Positions 1,767 to 17,077 of a DNA stretch of 64,000 nucleotides are shown piece after piece (position 1 is the first letter of the stretch; each line of letters starts with the position of its first letter). The notes beneath the pieces were generated by a model. It did no database searches, was not told the origin of the DNA, and saw only the letters and a program-made list of their open reading frames with translations. The DNA lies in assembly GCA_030055615.1 (NCBI GenBank), contig JASFYN010000002.1:251245-315244 (forward strand), written 5' to 3'. The DNA is from Methanothermobacter sp. (GTDB taxonomy: Archaea; Methanobacteriota; Methanobacteria; Methanobacteriales; DSM-23052). The translations under genes and the position numbers were made by a program.

Positions 1767-3398
1767 CTACCAAACACCCAACTCCTCAAGGGCCAAGGCC
1801 GCTGCCCGGCGAACATGCCACTTTTGGTCCTTTAACGCCCGTATTAAAGGCTCTACTGCACGAGAATCACCTATCTCTCCAAGTGCCAAAGCTGCTTCCC
1901 TGCGAACATGCCACTTTTGGTCCTTTAATGCCCGTATTAAAGGCTCTACTGCACGAGAATCACCTATCAGTCCAAGAGCCAAAACTGCTGCCCGGCTAAC
2001 ATTCTCATTTTGGTCTTTTAATGCCTGTATTAGAGGTTCTACTGCACGAGAATCACCTATCTCTCCAAGTGCCAAAGCTGCTTCCCTGCGAACATGCCAC
2101 TTTTGGTCCTTTAACGCCCGTATTAAAGGCTCTACTGCACGAGAATCACCTATCAGTCCAAGGGCTAGGGCTACTGCCCAGCGAACATTCTCATTTTGGT
2201 CTCTTAGTGCCTGTATTAGCGGTTCTACTGCACGAAAATCACCTATATATCCAAGTGCCAAAGCTGCTACACTGCGAACATCCTTGTCCGGGTCTTTTAA
2301 TGCCTGTATTAGAGGTTCTACTGCACGAGAATCACCTATCAGTCCAAGAGCCCAAGCTGCTGCCCGGCTAACATTCTCATTTTGGTCTCTTAATGCCTGT
2401 ATTAGAGGTTCTACTGCACGAGAATCACCTATCTCTCCAAGTGCCAAAGCTGCTTCCCTGCGAACATCCTTATCTGGGTCCCTTAATGCCCACATTAACG
2501 GTTTTACCGCACGAAAATCACCTATATATCCAAGGGCCCGGGCTGCTACACTGCGAACATCCTTATCTGGGTCCCTTAATGCCCACATTAACGGTTCTAC
2601 TGCACGAGAATCACCTATCTCCCCGAAAGCCCGGGCTACAGGCTCATCTATATATCCAAGGGCCCGGGCTGCTTCCTCGCGAACATGCCATTGTGGGTCT
2701 TTTAATGCCTGTATTAGCGGTTCTACTGCACGAGAATCACCTATCAGTCCAAGAGCCCGGGCTGCTGCCCAGCGAACATTCTCATTTTGGTCTCTTAGTG
2801 CCTGTATTAGAGGTTCTACTGCACGAGAATCACCTATCTCTCCAAGTGCCAAGGCCGCTGCCCGGCGAATATCCTTGTCCGGGTCTTTTAATGCCCGTAT
2901 TAACGGTTCTACTGCAGGCTCACCTATCTCTCCAAGTGCCAAGGCCGCTGCCCGGCTAACATTCTCGTTTTGGTCTCTTAGTGCCTGTATTAGAGGTTCT
3001 ACTGCACGAGAATCACCTATCTCTCCAAGGGCTCGGGCTGCTACACTGCGAACATGCGATTGTGGGTCTTTTAATGCCCGTATTAACGGTTCTACTGCAG
3101 GCTCACCTATCTCTCCAAAGGCCAATGCTGCTCCCCGACGAACATACGCATCTGGGTCTTTTAATGCCTGTATTAGAGGTTCTACTGCAGGCTCACCTAT
3201 CTCTCCAAAGGCTCGGGCTGCTGCCCAGCGAACATGCGATTGTGGGTCTTTTAATGCCCGTATTAACGGTTCTACTGCAGGCTCACCTATCTCTCCAAAG
3301 GCCAATGCTGCTCCCCGACGAACATACGCATCTGGGTCTTTTGGTTCTTTTATTAGCTTTTTTATTTTTTGGCTGAAAAGGCGGTCTAGTAGTCCCAT
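1767..3398 (-). CDS. HEAT-like (PBS-lyase type) repeat protein
   Basis: A 543-aa protein made almost wholly of 17-18 tandem HEAT-like units. The usual unit is 31 aa ([20 protein letters not shown] followed by IQALKD); some are 29 aa with EP replacing DSR. Each unit would form a helix pair in a solenoid used for protein binding. The N-terminus ([19 protein letters not shown]) is a short cap and the C-terminus ends in EELGVW. One unit near residue 255 is truncated ([17 protein letters not shown]), so two repeats were joined by an internal deletion. Units 1 and 3 are identical in protein. ATG 3398 has AGGGGA about 7 nt upstream. The artificial alphaRep scaffolds were derived from this family in M. 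thermautotrophicus. The binding partner is unknown. Confidence 0.85.
3048..3342. repeat. Exact 115-bp direct repeat inside the HEAT gene (180-bp period)
   Basis: Bases 3048-3162 and 3228-3342 are identical over 115 bp. Other units across 1767-3340 repeat at about 93 bp, or about 186 bp for pairs, with only a few changes. This shows recent tandem duplication or gene conversion of HEAT units rather than old divergence. Confidence 0.85.
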
Positions 3399-6764: not shown

Positions 6765-6963
6765 CTTTTCACTAAATTTGTAGTATTCAGGGGGACAATA
6801 TTTTTCTCTTTTTAGTTATTATTCTAATAAATCATATTCTTATAATCTTTGATTTTGTTTCATGCTATGAGTACCTTATTTTAAAGTTTTTCTTATTGAA
6901 GGGGAATATTTTATTTGGTAGCGGGACTCTAATATTGATAATAGAATTATGGTGGGTGATCGT

Positions 6964-7248
6964 ATGATCCCTTATGGGCCTGAATTTCGGCTTGCTCAAT
7001 TTATATCCACGGTTATAACTGGTTTAAGTCTTGTTTATATGATAAGGGTCTCATTGCATGATAGAAAATGGGTTAATATGACCCTTGCGGTTTTCATGTT
7101 GTTTATATCAACTATCATGGGTTTTATGAGGGAATTTTTATTTTTCAACCTTTTCAGAACAATTGAATGGACTTTCATTGTATTTGCAACTTTCTTGTTC
7201 TTTTATGCTACTTTCAAGTCAAATAGGAAACTGGAGGCTAATCTATGA
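6964..7248 (+). CDS. Small three-helix membrane protein, first of a coupled pair
   Basis: About 94 aa with three hydrophobic segments (roughly residues 11-29, 39-56 and 67-86), each flanked by basic residues (RVSLHDRKW, KSNRKLEANL). I chose ATG 6964 because GGTGAT lies 4 nt upstream; ATG 6949 has no ribosome-binding site. The stop codon overlaps the next start as ATGA, so the two products are probably made together and may form a heteromer. I do not recognise a family. The size and spacing resemble membrane sensor or input modules without their output domain, but that is only an impression. Confidence 0.55.
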   Translation: MIPYGPEFRLAQFISTVITGLSLVYMIRVSLHDRKWVNMTLAVFMLFISTIMGFMREFLFFNLFRTIEWTFIVFATFLFFYATFKSNRKLEANL

Positions 7249-7526
7249 TAATATTAATACTTAAATTTATTGCGCTCGTCTTCATGGCCCTTGCAAGCAT
7301 AATAGCAATAAAAAATTATATGTTAACAAAATTTGCCTCAGGCATCTGGGGCCTTATATCTATTAGTTTTTTAACTGGGACCATATTATTATTTGTAAGA
7401 TTCATAAAGGAGTTCATACCTTTAGTTGAGCTCGAAGTTGTGAAGATATGTCTTCTCCCAGTAATGATGGCTTTTATATTCGCAGCATCATTTGAACTTG
7501 AAAGAAACATCCTAAAACCAGTCTAA
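7245..7526 (+). CDS. Small three-helix membrane protein, second of a coupled pair
   Basis: A 93-aa protein with hydrophobic segments near residues 3-22, 33-52 and 64-83, ending ELERNILKPV. The ATG at 7245 overlaps the upstream stop by 4 nt, implying translational coupling. It shares overall layout with the upstream protein (three helices, an acidic/basic loop before helix 3, a basic tail), so the pair may derive from an old duplication, although residue identity is low. The family is not recognised. A T-rich stretch follows the stop. Confidence 0.55.
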   Translation: MIILILKFIALVFMALASIIAIKNYMLTKFASGIWGLISISFLTGTILLFVRFIKEFIPLVELEVVKICLLPVMMAFIFAASFELERNILKPV

Positions 7527-7692
7527 ACTTTTTTAATGAAATTCTAAAAAGCTGGGGGAAAGTTAATATCAACCTTTATCATAAAAAAGTAAAAAATCTA
7601 ATCCATATGGTAGGATCAGAATTTGGGCACTATTGTTTTAGTTTATCATCTTCAGGGGGTTCAGGTTTAAAATCCTTGGTTCCGCTCGACTT

Positions 7693-7716
7693 GGGGGTTA
7701 AGCTCAGCTTACCCCC
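7693..7716 (-). terminator. Hairpin directly after the tspO stop
   Basis: An inverted repeat, GGGGGTTAAGC / GCTTACCCCC around a TCA loop with one bulged base, abuts the tspO stop codon (7717-7719). It is strong for such an A+T-rich region. It may act as a transcription terminator or 3'-end stabiliser for tspO, or serve the convergent pair at 6964-7526. The assignment is by position and structure only. Confidence 0.4.
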
Positions 7717-8202
7717 TTATACATTTAGGATGTATACTGCGTAGTTTAGTACTGCTGCTATGGTCACCCATGTGATGTATGGTATGAGGATTATAGCCGC
7801 TGGTTTAAATATCCGGTAGAATACGATTATTGTCAGAAGTATCATTATCCAAAATGGTGCTATTATGATGAGAGCTCCTAGGATAGATTTAAAAGCGAAA
7901 AACACCACCGACCATAAAATGTTTAATATAAGCTGTAGACCGAATATCCCCAAGGCAATTTTAACTTCTTTTTCATAGAATCCTTCACGCCACACTAGAA
8001 AAGCTGCTATACCCATTAGTATGTAGAGTGTAGTCCAGATCGGCGCGAATAGCCAGTTTGGCGGGGTCCAAGCCGGTTTTGTTAGGGAAGCATACCATGT
8101 GGGTATAGATTGTATTGTGGCAAGCGAACCTAAAAAACCCGCGATTAAACATATTAATATTGAAATGACTAACTTTAAGACTTCTACGAGCTTTAGGTTC
8201 AT
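7717..8202 (-). CDS. tspO: TspO/MBR family membrane protein
   Basis: A 161-aa integral membrane protein with five predicted helices. It has the family hallmarks: the aromatic-rich WYASLTKPAWTPPNWLFAPIW segment after helix 1 (split across residues about 35-56), LYILMGIAAFLVW for helix 2, and ILNILWSVVFF for helix 3. TspO proteins bind tetrapyrroles and cholesterol-like ligands and modulate porphyrin-linked stress responses in bacteria; the archaeal role is unclear. It begins at ATG 8202 with AGGGA upstream. It lies 18 bp downstream of a TerB-like gene on the same strand and is probably co-transcribed with it. Confidence 0.88.
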   Translation of the reverse strand: MNLKLVEVLKLVISILICLIAGFLGSLATIQSIPTWYASLTKPAWTPPNWLFAPIWTTLYILMGIAAFLVWREGFYEKEVKIALGIFGLQLILNILWSVVFFAFKSILGALIIIAPFWIMILLTIIVFYRIFKPAAIILIPYITWVTIAAVLNYAVYILNV

Positions 8203-8220
8203 TGTAGTTCCCTAGTAAAA

Positions 8221-8646
8221 TTATATTATGCCATCGAGTATCCCCATTACTATCGCTATGGCTTTTCCTTCGTCTTCGACGATTCCCCCAGAGGAACCTG
8301 CAACTCTTATTGCTATTTTTAATAGTATTTTTTTGAAATTTTGGGCTTCTGAATGTTTTATTCTCCCTAACAAATCGGCAACTATCTTAAGGCCCTCCAC
8401 GGGGTTCTTTTCCAGTAATTTCTTGAATTCAGGGTTGTTGTTCAGCATATTAGTGACATGGTCTCTGAAGACTTCATAGGTAAATCCTGAAGAATATTCT
8501 ACCACATTTTTTATCTGATTTGTTACTTCTATCATTTCTTCTAGATCAACTCTACCATCTGCCACGGCTACAACCTCAAAAACCCAAATAGGAGCTGCTT
8601 GCAAAGTTAACCATTCACTTTCAGTAAATTGGTTCCTAAATGCCAC
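8221..8646 (-). CDS. TerB-like helical protein, copy A
   Basis: A 141-aa all-helical protein. The motif EVVAVADGRVDLEEM (residues about 24-38) and the C-terminal EDEGKAIAIVMGILDG resemble the TerB/tellurite-resistance fold, where an acidic ADG loop binds metal. No membrane segment or signal. The start is GTG 8646 with GGGGTG 5 nt upstream. A second gene of identical length and about three-quarters identity lies at 16428-16853. It is probably in an operon with tspO. TerB-domain proteins act in membrane-associated stress and defence complexes; a specific role here is not shown, and the fold assignment is by motif only. Confidence 0.55.
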   Translation of the reverse strand: MAFRNQFTESEWLTLQAAPIWVFEVVAVADGRVDLEEMIEVTNQIKNVVEYSSGFTYEVFRDHVTNMLNNNPEFKKLLEKNPVEGLKIVADLLGRIKHSEAQNFKKILLKIAIRVAGSSGGIVEDEGKAIAIVMGILDGII

Positions 8647-8913
8647 TTTAACACCCCCCCAAAAAAAATATTAAATAATATATGTTTGGAGTTTATTATA
8701 TTTAATTTTTTCTATTTTTCGTCAAAACCTTAAAATGTCAATAAGTATCTATCATTGTATATTCGATTTTAGTGGGTTGCTTAGAATCATGAAAGATCCA
8801 GATTGGCCAAATTATGGCGTAATATTGTGTTGAATGGATTTTTTAAATTAAAAATGATATGAATAGGTCGGATTTTATCATAAATTTTTTAGGGGCCTTT
8901 TATATGTAAAGTC

Positions 8914-9239
8914 ATGAAGGTGTATGTATGGTTGAAATTTAACTTCGTTAAACATTGCTATAACGAAATAAACCCGCCAAGAAATGGAATTTTTAATAAG
9001 CTTGGCGTTTTTCACCATTCGAAAGAATACTTTCAATTATTAGCCATGTCCCAGTTTTTTGTACCCTATTTTCGGTGAACTGGAATGCTCTTGCATGCTT
9101 ATCGGCCGGCTTTTCACGCTTCTGCTTTTTAATTGAAATCATCGGCTGCAGCCGTGGTAGAAGCGTTAAATGGCTTGTCAGACCTTCTTCGACGATTGAC
9201 GATGATGTTATGTTGGAGGCTGTTCACAGTTCTTTTTAG
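8914..9239 (+). pseudogene. Degraded unidentified gene
   Basis: From ATG 8914 a frame reads MKVYVWLKFNFVKHCYNEIN and continues to a TGA at 9076. The same frame goes on (TGMLLHAYRPAFHASAF) to a TAA near 9130. Reading one base over then gives FLIEIIGCSRGRSVKWL and IDDDVMLEAVHSSF before a TAG at 9237. The two segments join if one T is missing from the T-run near 9128. The segments look coding, so this is best read as a dead gene, possibly of mobile-element origin given the setting, but no transposase motif is visible. A TATA-like TTTATATG lies at 8898-8905. Confidence 0.4.
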
Positions 9240-9497
9240 TTTTCTCCCATTTCTTTCTTTTTATAAAGGCTTTGATTTAGGACTCTCCATACAAAAAATT
9301 TTTTATCTTCTCTTTGTGGGATGAAGTAGAAAATAAAACAATAAAGGATGAAGCTCTTTTTTGGATGTTATTATGTGGGGGCACGGTTCCCCAATAACGA
9401 GAAGACACAAACGATGAAAAATTAGGGGAATAAAAAAGTACATTGAAAAAAGATTAACTCCAAGAACACCAAAGATAAGTAAAAAGAGGAAGTTAAG

Positions 9498-9629
9498 ATG
9501 AAAGAAGTAGGATCAATAACATACCAACTCGAAAAAGTAAACTGTGGTAAAGAAGGATGCACAAGGTACCCCCATAGCCCATACTGATATGCTTATTGGC
9601 CCGAAGGCAGAAAAGTCAAATCAAAATAA
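9498..9629 (+). pseudogene. Broken DUF6788-like gene
   Basis: ATG 9498, preceded by GAGGAAG, opens MKEVGSITYQLEKVNCGKEG followed by CTRYPHSPY, then a TGA at 9585-9587, then YAYWPEGRKVKSK and a TAA at 9627. In DUF6788 proteins the corresponding segment is CGK..C.....HGPYWYLYWREGGK, so the TGA replaces a Trp codon (TGG to TGA) and the rest of the gene is gone. The family is typical of mobile and accessory regions. This supports the view that the stretch upstream of 9770 is an eroding insertion region. Confidence 0.55.
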
Positions 9630-9737
9630 AAAATTATTAATGTAGAGGATTCGCCCCCTTTGTGGAGAATTGAACCGTGAAAAAATACAGTTTCCCTCCC
9701 TTGAAAGAATGTAAAATTAATAAACACAGAAAAAATG

Positions 9738-9745
9738 TTTATAAA
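9738..9745 (+). promoter_or_regulatory. TATA box of the HD/PD-(D/E)XK gene
   Basis: TTTATAAA preceded by an A-rich BRE-like stretch (AGAAAAAATG). Transcription would begin about 25 nt downstream, near 9767-9770, which coincides with the ATG. This suggests leaderless translation; no ribosome-binding site is present before the ATG. Confidence 0.5.
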
Positions 9746-9769
9746 GAAGTGGTTTAATAGTGAAATTGT

Positions 9770-11626
9770 ATGAAAGCAACTGTCATCCGGGAATATTTGC
9801 CTATTTTAGAAAGAGGCATAAATTTAACGCTTTATGGTAAAGCTGCTGAATTTTATAAATTGTTAGAGGAAAATGGATTCATTGATAGGTTAAAGAAAGT
9901 TGAACAGTTGGGTGTGATTAGTCAAATTGAAAAGTCTGCTTCACATACAAGATGGGAATATATGATTCTCCAATTATATCTGATTCAAAAATTGATACGT
10001 GAAGAAAGAGGAAGATTCGGTAAAATTAAGGAGCTTAACATTTTTGGCGTTGAAGTTTTGCAATTGTGGGTATTTCTTTTTAATATGGGGCATCCTCCGG
10101 GCACTTTTGCCACAATAAGGGGAATAGTGTCAGTTCTGTACCAAGATGATGAAATGTTAAAAGAAAAAGTTCCCAAGAGACTTAAAGATATATTTAAAAA
10201 GGTTGTCAAGAGGAAAGATATTTTTAGTTTTCCCAAAATTTTATCAGCAATATACTTAAAAGAACTAAAGGAGAATATACAGGCTATTGACGATAAAATG
10301 TATGATTTGTCTCTCAAATTATTACTTTATTACTTTGAAGAAGGTGGAAGGCCTGAAAGAATAGAAGTATTGAAATCTTATTTTGAAATGATAAGGCGTT
10401 TATCTTTCCTATTTTTAGATTTAAGTCATATAAGATCTCCGATAATAGATATTGACATTTCTGAGATATTCTTGGATCCGAGAAGTTATGATGAGATGCT
10501 GGAACCTTCTAGCCAATTTAGCAAAACTTTAGAGACACTCGAGGATCTCCTTTCCGTAACATTATATCATTCAAAGATTACAATAACCCAAATGGGTATC
10601 CATTCAAAAAGAGTTGAAGAAATCTTTAAGGAGTGGCTTTTTAAAAACGGGAAACATGAAAGTTTCAATAACTTTATAGAAGAGAAAAAAAGTAAGCTTT
10701 ATCCAGGATTTCGACAACCAATGTTAACTTTCCATGTCCTACTTGACCTAGAAAAAAAAGAATTCCGTTATTTAGACAAAAAGGGATTCCATAGTATTTT
10801 TTATAAACTAGAAGAAGAGTTAAATGAAGAATATTATCATAAAAAAGATGGAAGGAATAACGAGAGAAAGGAAGCTCTAGTAACATATCAACCAGGGTCT
10901 AATAACAAACATATCGTGATAAATCTCGCAATTTACAAAGAAAACAGAATAGGAAAATTAATAAGAGACTTTGTCTTTAAACTTTCCGAAATTTTGAGAA
11001 ATATAAATAAAGACATTAAAAAAGATGTTAAAAAGATAAAAAAATCCCATAAGGAAGAAAAATTAGAATTCATATTATTTAAAATAAAATTCTTTAAATT
11101 ATTTAGAAACGAATTCTATCCTCGATTTTTCAAATTCATATTAAGAACGATATTTCAGAAATATTCTTTCAAAAAGTTTCATTTTGACACTATCGAAGAT
11201 AGATTATTTGTAGGCGAAAAGAAAGAACTTAAAAAGCAAATAGAAAGGAAAATTCAAAAAATAGAAAACAGACTACAAAATGAAAAAAATCAAGATAAAG
11301 TAAAAGAACTTAAAAGCAAAAAAGCAGAATTCAAGTCTCTAAATAAGGTAATAGATAATTTAAAATTTAAAATAGGTATTATAGGGCAAAGAATTAATTT
11401 GATAGATCAAAATAGAGATACTATTGGAGAGTTCGATGGCCTCGGTGTAATCATAGATAAAAACTTGGAAATATTATTCCTAGAAGCAAAGACGAGTAGA
11501 GCAGAAAAAGCAGAGAATCAGTTGCGAGATTCTATGAAAAAAATCTTAAATTTACAATTAGACAATGATGAAATCCAAAGCGGCAAAGAGAAAGATTTTG
11601 CATATGCATATTGCATTAAAAGGTAA
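9770..11626 (+). CDS. Degenerate HD-domain protein with C-terminal PD-(D/E)XK nuclease motif
   Basis: A 618-aa cytoplasmic protein not assignable to a named family. Residues 40-120 resemble the SAMHD1/dGTPase-type HD fold: QLGVISQIEKSASHTRWEY matches the conserved QLG...PGATHTRFEH stretch (His59). The usual LLHDIGH is FLFNMGH (residues 102-108), so the catalytic His-Asp pair is lost while the following Gly-His is kept. Residues about 395-520 are very Lys/Glu-rich and partly coiled coil. The C-terminus has EFDGLGV (Glu554, Asp556) and LEAKT (Glu572, Lys574), the D-X(n)-EXK pattern of PD-(D/E)XK nucleases. A TATA box (TTTATAAA, 9738-9745) sits about 25 nt before ATG 9770, implying a leaderless mRNA. 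It is flanked by pseudogenes. A sensor-plus-nuclease role, perhaps in defence, is inference. Confidence 0.6.
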   Translation: MKATVIREYLPILERGINLTLYGKAAEFYKLLEENGFIDRLKKVEQLGVISQIEKSASHTRWEYMILQLYLIQKLIREERGRFGKIKELNIFGVEVLQLWVFLFNMGHPPGTFATIRGIVSVLYQDDEMLKEKVPKRLKDIFKKVVKRKDIFSFPKILSAIYLKELKENIQAIDDKMYDLSLKLLLYYFEEGGRPERIEVLKSYFEMIRRLSFLFLDLSHIRSPIIDIDISEIFLDPRSYDEMLEPSSQFSKTLETLEDLLSVTLYHSKITITQMGIHSKRVEEIFKEWLFKNGKHESFNNFIEEKKSKLYPGFRQPMLTFHVLLDLEKKEFRYLDKKGFHSIFYKLEEELNEEYYHKKDGRNNERKEALVTYQPGSNNKHIVINLAIYKENRIGKLIRDFVFKLSEILRNINKDIKKDVKKIKKSHKEEKLEFILFKIKFFKLFRNEFYPRFFKFILRTIFQKYSFKKFHFDTIEDRLFVGEKKELKKQIERKIQKIENRLQNEKNQDKVKELKSKKAEFKSLNKVIDNLKFKIGIIGQRINLIDQNRDTIGEFDGLGVIIDKNLEILFLEAKTSRAEKAENQLRDSMKKILNLQLDNDEIQSGKEKDFAYAYCIKR

Positions 11627-12151
11627 GTAAGAGTCTATTTTTAAGAGACTCTAATGAACTTCAAAGAAACAACCAAAAACAAACAATGAATTAACGACAC
11701 TCCTTTCCATTATTTTTTTAGATTTGATGCTAATAAGTATGGTGATCTTATATAAAGTTCAAGTCTATGATCTACAAGTTGGAATCACTTCAACCTTGTT
11801 TGGTATAATATCTTATTTTTTCATTTCTTCAAGTGTTTGTTTTTTTTTTTTTTTTTTTTTTGCTTTCCAATTTGTTAATAGGTCGATAAGTTCATTCCTT
11901 TTTAAAATGTTTTTTTTTGTTGGCCAGTATTTTTTTGTCAACCCTCACACTCTAACTTTTTATTACGGATGCTTCCTAAGACCTTTTTTCATATCTACAA
12001 CGTGAAAGATTTCTTCTTCTATGAAAAGTATCCTTGATGTTGGGAACATTGCGTCGTAGAATATAGTCAAAATTACACAATTTAACAAAAAATAGAAAAA
12101 TATTTTATCAAGATATTTCAGAAAAACCCTTTTAACAATAAATGAAGGTTA
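11627..12151. other. 525-bp stretch with a T22 tract
   Basis: No convincing gene. A 93-codon plus-strand frame across 11724-12005 exists only because the T22 run encodes Phe. On the minus strand short coding-like pieces (ELIDLLTNWKAK, LEEMKK, VVDMKKGLRKHP) suggest remains of a lost gene. The right end holds the promoter region of the histidine kinase (AAAATATTTTATC around 12100). Confidence 0.45.
11840..11861. repeat. Homopolymer tract of 22 T
   Basis: An uninterrupted run of T from 11840 to 11861, far longer than expected by chance even at this A+T content. It could be slippage-prone or an assembly artefact. It could work as a terminator for the 9770 gene, but it lies 213 bp after that stop. 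Confidence 0.8.
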
Positions 12152-13714
12152 TTGGTGATCTTGGTGGATTCCTTGGTATTTGCGAGGCGGTTTTCAATTT
12201 TCCTGGGAATGGTGATAGTTGGTCTTGCGCCTGTTGAATTTTTGATTAGTGGGGTTGTTAGTGGTGTGGGATTTTTTGTTGTTGGAGTTTCCATGATCCT
12301 TTTGGGTTTGGATCAAAGAAAACCCATAATAGCGCTTCTTGCCTTCATTATATTGGCCGCTTTGACCTCCCCTCTTTCTTCAGGAATCCTATTCTTCATG
12401 TATGCTTTAATTTTCCTGTTTTTCTTTTTTGGGTTTTATGGTTTTGGCCAAATCTTTGGATATGTTGTGGGTATAGTGGCATATTGTAGTGTTGTGTCTT
12501 GTTTAACTGGTTTGTTACCTTCTCCAAGACTTCAAATGCCCTTGTTGGATGGTTTGTTGCATTTGTTAGCTGCTGTAAGTATATTGTCCATTTATCCTGG
12601 TGAAGGTGTTGTTGCACCGTTTCATTCGAAATATGCTGGAGGTCAAATGGCAAGAAAACTAATACCTTCACTTGTAACCATCATCCTCATCATAGGACCT
12701 GTGATATTATCATTGAGGGAACACCTACCATTTCCAAGTGGAATATTTCTTCTTGCAATGGCATTGGCCACCAGCCTCTTCATGATAAGTGTTGCGGTTG
12801 AGCGCCTTAACAGGATGGACCAGAAAAGGGCGAAATCCCACCAAGAAGCCCTAAATGCATGGAAATTCTTTGAAGGTGTTGTGGAGAATATAGGAGATGC
12901 CATAGCAGTCCTGGACAAAAAAGGAAAAACAATATACAAGAACAAGCAAATGGAAAAACTAAACTTCAAAATCCAAGATTATTGGGAAAAACTTAAAGAT
13001 ACCCCTGTCCATATCAAAAAGGATAACAGGTACTTTACTGGTTGGGTCGTCCCACTCGACAAAGAAAAATCCATAATATCCCTAACAGAAATAACAGACC
13101 TCATCAAAGCACAAAAACAACTAAAAGAAACCATCAAGGAGAAAGACGCCCTCTTAAGAGAACTACACCACCGCATAAAAAACAACCTACAAATCATAAT
13201 AAGTCTATTAAATCTTCAAGCCCAAAAGGCAGACCCAAAAACAAAAAAAGTCCTATCAGAAGTGCAAAACCGCATAAAATCCATGGCCACAATACACGAA
13301 ACACTCTACGAAACCAAAACACACAAAATAGACATGCAAAAATACACAGAAAAACTCACAAACAGCCTCAAAACCCAACACAAAAACATAAAATTCCAAA
13401 CAAACTGCAAAACCAAACTAAACCTAGAAACCAGCATACCACTAGCCATGCTCATCAACGAACTACTCCAACAATCCATCAAAACAAAACCCACCAAAAT
13501 AAAAACAAAAATCCAAAAACACAAAAAAGAACACAAACTAACCATAACACACAACGGAACACCAACCAGCCACCCGGGGGGGGGGGGAGATCAGAAACCT
13601 CCTGATAAAAGCACTAACACAACAACTCGACGCAAAACTACAAACAAAAAACAACAAAACCACCATAACATTCAAAGAACTAAAATACAAAAAAAGAGCA
13701 TAAACTTCAGTTAA
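12152..13714 (+). CDS. Membrane histidine kinase (HisKA_2 type), frame broken at a G12 tract
   Basis: Residues 1-230 hold about seven hydrophobic segments, followed by a PAS-like region (FEGVVENIGDAIAVLDKKGK). Next comes the dimerisation/phosphoacceptor region LLRELHHRIKNNLQIIISLL (about residues 333-352; His in HHRIKNN) and an ATPase domain with INELLQQSIKT and LTITHNGTPTS. After HPGGGG, at a run of 12 G (13576-13587), the frame loses the family pattern (DQKPPDKSTN...). The alternative frame continues IRNLLIKALTQQLDAKL and TTITFKELKYKKRA to a TAA at 13701-13703, the normal end of such a domain. One fewer G restores it. The start is TTG 12152 or GTG 12155 behind GAAGGT. No response regulator is adjacent. 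Confidence 0.75.
   Translation: MVILVDSLVFARRFSIFLGMVIVGLAPVEFLISGVVSGVGFFVVGVSMILLGLDQRKPIIALLAFIILAALTSPLSSGILFFMYALIFLFFFFGFYGFGQIFGYVVGIVAYCSVVSCLTGLLPSPRLQMPLLDGLLHLLAAVSILSIYPGEGVVAPFHSKYAGGQMARKLIPSLVTIILIIGPVILSLREHLPFPSGIFLLAMALATSLFMISVAVERLNRMDQKRAKSHQEALNAWKFFEGVVENIGDAIAVLDKKGKTIYKNKQMEKLNFKIQDYWEKLKDTPVHIKKDNRYFTGWVVPLDKEKSIISLTEITDLIKAQKQLKETIKEKDALLRELHHRIKNNLQIIISLLNLQAQKADPKTKKVLSEVQNRIKSMATIHETLYETKTHKIDMQKYTEKLTNSLKTQHKNIKFQTNCKTKLNLETSIPLAMLINELLQQSIKTKPTKIKTKIQKHKKEHKLTITHNGTPTSHPGGGGDQKPPDKSTNTTTRRKTTNKKQQNHHNIQRTKIQKKSINFS
13576..13587. repeat. G12 tract inside the histidine kinase gene
   Basis: Twelve consecutive G in an otherwise A/C-rich coding stretch. With 11 (or 8, or 14) G the kinase would keep its ATP-binding domain frame to 13703. 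With 12 it ends in an unrelated tail at 13714. Such tracts are typical sites of slipped-strand length change. Confidence 0.85.
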
Positions 13715-14278
13715 AGCAGTAGCCTCCCCATATCATGATTTAATTTGCACAGAATTTTACACCCTATTCAAATTCATAGTGTTATAACGAACAAAACTAC
13801 AAGGGAAACATTCAAATACATATTATGAGCAATAATAAAGAACTGGAGATTAAATTATATAATAGTTTATATTTAAAGTTTTAGTTAAGTAATCTATAAT
13901 CTTTAAATTATTTTTGTCGGTATTATAATCTTTTAAATGTATATTGGGCATCTGACGTCCATACTTTTTTATAATGGAGTTTTGATATCTTCACTTTGTT
14001 GAGTGAAAGGACGGTTAGATTAGCCTCAGACCATCTATAAAGGTTCTTTTGGGAAAATAATAATCCAAATCGCCTCTATGATTGAAAATTACAATGGAGA
14101 AAACTTATCTTAAAAACATTATATAGTGGGCTTCTCAGCGACCTTTAAATCTTAAAAAGAGTTCTATAGTCGTTTTTTTCCGGAAAAAAAACCAAAACAT
14201 TTATATATTATATCCATGCGACTATGTACTCATACAAAAAAATAACAATCCTATTATATAGGATATGGAGGCGGTAAA
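13715..14278. other. Long upstream region of the endopeptidase gene
   Basis: No open frame of note. It is A+T-rich (several TTTAAAT/TATATT stretches from 13850 to 13925). The right end carries the promoter elements of the next gene: an 18-bp palindrome TTTTTTTCCGGAAAAAAA at 14173-14190, a TATA box at 14201-14210, and an inverted repeat ATAGTCG (14166-14172) / CGACTAT (14219-14225) enclosing both. Confidence 0.5.
14166..14225 (+). promoter_or_regulatory. Promoter with palindrome and flanking inverted repeat, upstream of the pseudomurein endopeptidase
   Basis: The TATA box TTATATATTA (14201-14210) is preceded by CCAAAACAT. The perfect palindrome TTTTTTTCCGGAAAAAAA (14173-14190) lies immediately upstream, and ATAGTCG/CGACTAT arms bracket the whole. 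Transcription would start near 14232-14236, giving a leader of about 45 nt. Palindromes touching an archaeal TATA/BRE are common regulator sites, and an autolysin would need tight control; the regulator is not known. Confidence 0.45.
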
Positions 14279-16427: not shown

Positions 16428-16853
16428 TTATAACATGCCGTCGAGTATCCCCATTACTATTGCAATGGCTTTTTCTTCATTTTTATCAACTCCACTTGAA
16501 GAGTCAGCGACTTTTATCGCCATCTTTAATAATACTTTTTTGAAATTTTGAGCCTCAGAATGTTTAACTCTCCCTAACAAATCTGCGACTATCCTAAGGC
16601 CTTCCAAAGGGTTCTTTTTCAGTAAAATTCTGAATTCAAGATTGTTATTCATTACAGTGGCGACATGATCCCTGAAGACTTCATAAGTAAATCCACTGGA
16701 ATATTCTATCACATTCTTTGATTGATTTAACACTTCTTCTAATTCCCTTTCCTCAATTCTACCATCAGCTATGGCTACGACTTCAAAAACCCAAATAGGA
16801 GCTGCTTGTAACGTTAACCATTCTCTCTCATTGAACTGATCCCTAAATACCAA
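16428..16853 (-). CDS. TerB-like helical protein, copy B
   Basis: A 141-aa paralogue of the protein at 8221-8646: the same length and, by my count, about 104 of 141 residues identical. LQAAPIWVFEVVA, EYSSGFTYEVFRDHV and KHSEAQNFKK are identical in both. Differences cluster in the segment after ADGR (IEERELEEVLNQ against VDLEEMIEVTNQ) and before the C-terminal KAIAIVMGILDG. The start is TTG 16853 with GGGGGTG 8 nt upstream. Unlike copy A it has no tspO partner and stands alone. The fold assignment to TerB is by the acidic ADGR..E loop only. Confidence 0.55.
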   Translation of the reverse strand: MVFRDQFNEREWLTLQAAPIWVFEVVAIADGRIEERELEEVLNQSKNVIEYSSGFTYEVFRDHVATVMNNNLEFRILLKKNPLEGLRIVADLLGRVKHSEAQNFKKVLLKMAIKVADSSSGVDKNEEKAIAIVMGILDGML

Positions 16854-17077
16854 TTGTGAAACACCCCCATAACGTAATATGATATTACAAAATATTATTT
16901 ATTTCTTACCTATATATTTTACTATTCTCCAAAAAAATTATTAAAACAGTCATAGTTCGGATAGGATTCTTCAACCCCTCCAAAATTCCTATAAATTGGG
17001 ATTGTCTACATGCGGGATATCCCTATTCAATTTCTCTGAATAAGGTTTATATTGAACATTGTAAAAAGCATAAGATT

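Follow-up and report, generated by a model that had tools for sequence, protein, structure and literature searches.

A conserved SAMHD1-type HD domain without its metal site, joined to a putative PD-(D/E)XK nuclease: a tentative nucleotide-sensing immune protein of methanogenic archaea and Bacillaceae plasmids

In animals as well as bacteria, SAMHD1-like enzymes act in cell defence through the destruction of dNTPs. Another type of immune protein is the sensor-nuclease effector, in which a CARF or SAVED domain is fused to a PD-(D/E)XK nuclease (Can2/Card1, Cap4). The metal ligands of SAMHD1 are H167, H206, D207, and D311; the triphosphate is contacted by R164, and the phosphate oxygens by H210 and H215 (PMC4592219, PMC8177086). 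The bacterial anti-phage system Clover (CloA-CloB) is built on an HD dNTPase that is regulated by nucleotide ligands (PMC12265719). An HD domain can also diverge and lose hydrolysis in a protein that is still functional, as in the pseudo-HD domain of RelA (PMC8177086). A fusion of an HD domain with a PD-(D/E)XK nuclease in defence was not described in any text that our searches, with partial coverage of the literature, retrieved, and a survey of archaeal immunity made no mention of an HD domain, SAMHD1, or a dNTPase (PMC12988326). Here, we describe a family of proteins in which these two parts appear to be joined.

The gene was found in a window of 64,000 nucleotides, the whole stretch of DNA that was analysed, from a 1.49-Mb genome of the order Methanobacteriales, the order to which Methanobrevibacter curvatus also belongs. 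It is a single, intact ORF with exactly the boundaries given in a preliminary description of this DNA (Table 1). The sequence elements on which that description was based, QLGVISQIEKSASHTRWEY, FLFNMGH, EFDGLGV (with D556), and LEAK (with E572 and K574), were all located at the residues it had assigned to them. Searches of Pfam, NCBIfam, PADLOC, and PHROGs gave nothing convincing for the protein, and the PADLOC-DB 2.0.0 models matched neither this protein nor its relatives from M. curvatus, G115, G130, and Peribacillus. When PDB sequences were searched with phmmer, the top match was the HD phosphohydrolase 2q14 (residues 35-138, E 0.01); matches to SCAF8/RBM16 and to photosystem chains were judged to be due to chance. 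By eye, no obvious Shine-Dalgarno-like sequence was present upstream of the ATG, and this, together with the TATA-like TTTATAAA, would be compatible with a leaderless-type archaeal promoter and transcript.

Table 1. Positions of the gene, of its recognisable or predicted parts, and of the surrounding variable region in the window.
Feature	Position	Strand	Remarks
Whole gene, pseudo-HD/putative PD-(D/E)XK protein	9770..11626	+	618 aa, ATG to TAA; five full-length relatives
TATA-like TTTATAAA	9738..9745	+	25-32 nt 5' of the ATG; by eye
HD core of the SAMHD1 type lacking the metal site, residues ~30-147	9857..10210	+	hhalign E 9.6e-11, 0/60 decoys; canonical counterpart L036 in the same genome
R61 (= SAMHD1 R164, kept) to Y64 (= metal ligand H167, lost)	9950..9961	+	Both invariant, 6/6
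F104-N105 replacing the HD ligand pair; H108 (= SAMHD1 H210) kept	10079..10093	+	From alignments
R209 (tentative replacement of D311), D217 (tentative equivalent of D319)	10394..10420	+	Both invariant; not independently significant
Middle region, residues ~291-480	10640..11210	+	Poorly conserved, no recognisable domain
Putative PD-(D/E)XK nuclease domain, residues ~508-618	11291..11623	+	D556, E/Q572, and K574 conserved in six members and the Priestia fragment
Putative catalytic triad	11435..11491	+	D556 (11435-11437), E572 (11483-11485), K574 (11489-11491)
Variable region holding the gene	6769..13889		Corresponds to ~2.7 kb in congener G001, where different, surface-protein-like ORFs are found

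Full-length relatives that are 21-45% identical to the window protein were found in four other Methanobacteriales genomes and on one Peribacillus plasmid. The archaeal relatives were revealed by whole-genome searches, among them that in the congener G002 (576 aa, 45% identity). The M. curvatus protein (G045 = NZ_LWMV01000194; 614 aa) is 28% identical to the window protein, and those of G115 and G130, from the same order, are 26% identical. The bacterial member, WP_309559452.1 from plasmid pA of Peribacillus sp. R9-11 (622 aa, 21% identity), was detected by tblastn against plasmids, and it led in turn to a 5'-truncated copy on Priestia megaterium pBMG4 that encodes the C-terminal domain alone (L050, 9001-9516). 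All six members are intact ORFs, 20-52% identical to one another. In a search that extended from the order outwards, the family was carried by only 5 of 396 genomes; M. curvatus was the sole match in scans of genome contigs, and no member was found in the viral contig and phage collections that were searched. The family is real and apparently undescribed. A protein considered as its seventh member, G143:C24, was excluded as a canonical HD protein in which the HD motif is present.

The N-terminal region had been proposed to be a degenerate SAMHD1-type HD domain, and the comparisons bore this out for the family of six rather than for a single decayed copy. A six-member profile of residues 1-150 was aligned by hhalign with a profile of canonical methanobacterial HD proteins, with a probability of 97 and an E of 9.6e-11. 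The score of 75.8 was not reached by any of 60 column-shuffled decoys, the maximum of which was 32.3. Weak matches to residues ~27-150 in ~55 Methanobacteriales genomes corresponded to canonical HD phosphohydrolases of ~400 aa. The window genome itself also encodes a canonical HD protein, L036, which matched SAMHD1 and related solved HD phosphohydrolase structures. As judged by profile and motif, the HD core is homologous to SAMHD1-type HD phosphohydrolases. With these dNTP triphosphohydrolases (L036; PDB 2hek, 2q14, 2o6i, SAMHD1) it shares the QLG...HxRxE(H/Y) helix, the (H/F)(D/N)xGH motif, and the equivalents of R164 and H210. In contrast to them, H167, H206, D207, and perhaps D311 are replaced in every member of the family, and an extra C-terminal part of ~330 aa is present.

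The first metal-binding histidine is gone, as FEH is changed to WEY64 in the window and to W/M-E/D-Y64 across the family (6/6). The HD pair is gone as well: LLHDxGH is changed to L-F104-N105-x-G-H108, with L-S-N in Peribacillus (6/6 without HD). R61 and H108, which correspond to SAMHD1 R164 and H210, are invariant in all six proteins, and Y64, N105, R61, and H108 are identical even where overall identity falls to 20%. The joint alignment paired the fourth ligand, D311, with R209, and SAMHD1 D319 with D217, both of which are invariant. The mapping of R209 is tentative, because 5 of 60 decoys reached the score of this stretch by itself. A claim that all four metal ligands are lost was softened for the same reason, the alignment of this third motif being insignificant alone. 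Because metal ligands are absent from all six members while the contact residues are invariant, the domain represents a conserved pseudo-dNTPase and not random decay, and we regard a conserved pseudo-HD domain as close to certain. That the gene is merely a degraded remnant of an ordinary HD enzyme was dismissed, because six intact ORFs of such divergence share these replacements as fixed features. The pseudo-HD domain may bind a (deoxy)nucleotide or a nucleotide-like signal without hydrolysing it. Retention of enzyme activity through a different site, either metal-free or with another metal geometry (Y64, N105, R209, H108), was weighed against this. Such a re-purposed site would agree with the invariance of the replacement residues Y64, N105, and R209 themselves, but the HD hydrolases known so far require the His/Asp metal cluster (PMC8177086) and the mapping of R209 is uncertain, so that it appears highly improbable.

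The C-terminal region had been described as a PD-(D/E)XK nuclease. The window protein contains ten patterns of the type D-x(10-22)-[DEQ]xK, and only the one formed by residues 556, 572, and 574 is kept in all six members. In an alignment of seven sequences (the six members and the Priestia fragment), these residues fall into a block [DE][FI]D...(E/Q)(A/S)K in which D556 and K574 are invariant; position 572 is Q instead of E in M. curvatus, and the truncated Priestia copy retains the D, E, and K of the triad. For profile comparisons, alignments of Mrr_cat and HSDR_N_2 were built from related genomes. Against Mrr_cat (PF04471), hhalign placed FDG...EAK onto IDG...QAK in the right register, with a weak score that was reached by 5 of 59 decoys. 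Against HSDR_N_2 (PF13588), EAK was placed onto ExK, and none of 59 decoys reached the score, but the match was weak (prob 7). The D...(E/Q)xK motif is therefore in the same register as in these two families, with an overall profile similarity that is not significant. Shedu SduA_C, used as a further comparator, was unmatched anywhere, including in the controls, and so gave no information. AlphaFold models built from a two-sequence alignment (window and M. curvatus) had a pLDDT of 37 for the whole protein and 53 for the C-terminal part. In this low-confidence C-terminal model the elements around the motif follow a helix-strands-helix order, and a Foldseek search with it returned nothing relevant. 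Given the weak profile scores, the low-pLDDT models, and the empty Foldseek search, the PD-(D/E)XK assignment is made at the level of the motif: triad invariance upheld the earlier proposal there, but weak profiles and low-confidence models did not extend it to the fold. The C-terminal domain is probably a nuclease, most likely of the PD-(D/E)XK type.

Alternatively, the C-terminal motif could be coincidental or structural and the protein not a nuclease but a pseudo-HD regulator of, for example, surface-glycan synthesis. The C-terminus showed no significant profile or fold match, and the genomic surroundings point partly in this direction: homologues were not found consistently in housekeeping operons, but the G002 copy is embedded in a glycosyltransferase cluster without an adjoining defence gene, and glycan genes are also present near the G115 and G130 copies. 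However, glycan loci are commonly hypervariable islands, and glycan genes are absent from the vicinity of the other three copies. Moreover, of the ten patterns only D556/E572/K574 is kept in archaeal and Bacillaceae members alike, and in Priestia, where this domain occurs by itself, all three triad residues are still present. We therefore consider a non-nuclease regulator unlikely and retain the assignment as a probable nuclease.

The preliminary description had also taken the gene for an acquired one, and this was borne out on several counts. Its GC content (0.293) and GC3 (0.264) are the lowest among the 30 long ORFs of the window (medians 0.391 and 0.345), and the region that holds it is replaced in a congener (Table 1). 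The alleles of the window and of G002 are 45% identical as proteins and lie at different loci, whereas the shared syntenic DNA is ~85% identical, which points to independent acquisition. Horizontal transfer is thus supported by the patchy occurrence of the gene, its low GC, and the divergence of its alleles. A single gene of low GC that occurs patchily on mobile or variable DNA, with an integrase close by in Peribacillus, would also suit a selfish or toxin-like element, such as an addiction or homing nuclease, maintained with no antiviral benefit to its host. No conserved antitoxin-like partner ORF lies alongside the gene, however, and the viral contig and phage collections, as described above, held no member, and we judge a selfish origin to be quite improbable.

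Known or candidate defence genes were present at four of the six loci (M. curvatus, G115, G130, and Peribacillus). In M. curvatus, a PLD-SNF2 helicase gene (HKD+Snf2, 3.3e-43) precedes a type IIG methyltransferase gene (PADLOC REase_MTase_IIG, E 8.6e-145), and the family gene starts 11 bp after the latter on the same strand, in an apparent operon. PDC-S39/DUF4209 lies just upstream of the G115 gene, a canonical gene of the HD/dGTPase-like type follows 3.4 kb downstream, and OLD/Ari-like and HEC-02A-like ATPases are encoded 1.7-8 kb from the G130 gene. In Peribacillus, a divergent PDC-M01A/B pair lies on one side and the integrase on the other. The Priestia fragment is located downstream of dndD/dndE, beside a DUF6602 gene. 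At the window locus, no defence gene adjoins the family gene and modification genes are absent beside it; the operon of type IIG methyltransferase and PLD-SNF2 helicase was present only in M. curvatus. Ten random 14-kb loci from the same and related genomes, used as a control, also gave strong PADLOC matches, including a CRISPR cluster and HEC-01. The defence-gene neighbours are therefore suggestive but uncalibrated, and a claim of statistical enrichment in defence islands was dropped for the same reason. The defence role suggested earlier is thus favoured by the neighbours at four of six loci but not by those in the window. Taking neighbours and mobility together, we consider such a role somewhat likely.

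The tight apparent operon in M. curvatus and the nuclease-domain fragment beside the dnd cluster in Priestia could also indicate an accessory nuclease or specificity protein of modification systems (type IIG-PLD-SNF2, Dnd). The dead HD domain would then be an oligomerisation or docking scaffold, and the partner helicase/methyltransferase or DNA-modification system would direct cutting. Yet no modification genes lie beside the copies in the window, G002, G115, G130, and Peribacillus, and a scaffold would not need invariant nucleotide-contact residues. An accessory of this kind is in our estimation as unlikely as the non-nuclease regulator. Two further observations concern the neighbourhoods of the relatives. 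In G002, an ORF 6.3 kb from the relative (L022, 17570-18163, - strand) resembles a CARF-wHTH CRISPR regulator (CasR/Csa3-like); a CasR/CARF model was matched among the pooled neighbours, without assignment to a single ORF. In M. curvatus, broken ORF pieces directly follow the gene (L021, 13873-14477), the first of which is a weak match to PifA (E 6e-5) and resembles the start of a KAP-type ATPase.

A dead pocket with kept phosphate-contact residues, a probable nuclease, and a position on mobile DNA near defence genes together fit a sensor-effector, and the protein may sense a nucleotide or phage cue and cut nucleic acid. The likeliest of the readings considered is that the gene encodes a horizontally moving, single-polypeptide sensor-effector of an unnamed family, that is, a nucleotide-gated defence nuclease; we put it at nearly an even chance. 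Nucleotide gating of the nuclease in the following manner is plausible, though we hold it with slightly less conviction. Viral infection would bring about a change in the pool of nucleotides, in a modified nucleotide, or in a signal. Filling or emptying of the dead pocket would then alter the oligomeric state, and this change would license the nuclease to cut DNA, which could be viral or, in abortive infection, the host's own. Only tentatively do we propose that proteins in which a dead SAMHD1-type dNTPase senses nucleotides, and so gates the PD-(D/E)XK nuclease to which it is fused, form a new class of prokaryotic immune proteins, found in methanogenic archaea and on Bacillaceae plasmids, either alone or attached to RM-like operons.

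Such a protein would follow the same logic as Can2/Card1 and Cap4, a ligand-binding domain joined to a nuclease, but its sensor would be a dead dNTPase fold, and no cyclase or CRISPR partner was seen. It differs from Clover, in which CloA is active, depletes dGTP, is partnered by the nucleotidyltransferase CloB, and has no fused nuclease (PMC12265719): the HD motif is absent here, and no CloB-type nucleotidyltransferase was recognised among the neighbours of the family. With RelA, which makes (p)ppGpp and has no nuclease, it would have in common a divergent HD domain that has lost hydrolysis. If the proposal is true, the family would be a sensing counterpart of SAMHD1-like defence, in which nucleotide levels are read out rather than depleted, and would link dNTP-based immunity with sensor-nuclease immunity. 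It would also enlarge the thin archaeal defence repertoire beyond CRISPR and RM (PMC12988326). Because a bacterial member exists (the Peribacillus plasmid protein), the proposal is directly testable in bacteria.

In the window, the gene has a TerB-like gene on one side (8221-8646) and, on the other, a histidine-kinase-like ORF (12152-13714). The TerB-like gene is present in two copies, at 8221-8646 and 16428-16872, both on the - strand, with DNA that is 78% identical. In congeners there is a single main TerB-like copy, at the equivalent of 16.4 kb, and the duplication therefore accompanies the variable stretch. The preliminary description had placed the gene amid pseudogenes. This is true of a remnant at 9498-9629 (+ strand), in which MKEVGSITYQLEKVNCGKEGCTRYPHSPY and YAYWPEGRKVKSK are separated by an in-frame TGA, but intact genes also flank the gene. 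The remnant may resemble the DUF6788-like group of small, zinc-finger-like proteins. The last ~60 residues of the histidine-kinase-like ORF (+ strand) look like the result of a frame change, and its DNA is 77% identical in G003. Elsewhere in the window, the ORF at 1767-3398 (- strand) encodes a protein that consists almost entirely of HEAT/PBS-like repeats; its DNA is repetitive and locally reaches 49% GC.
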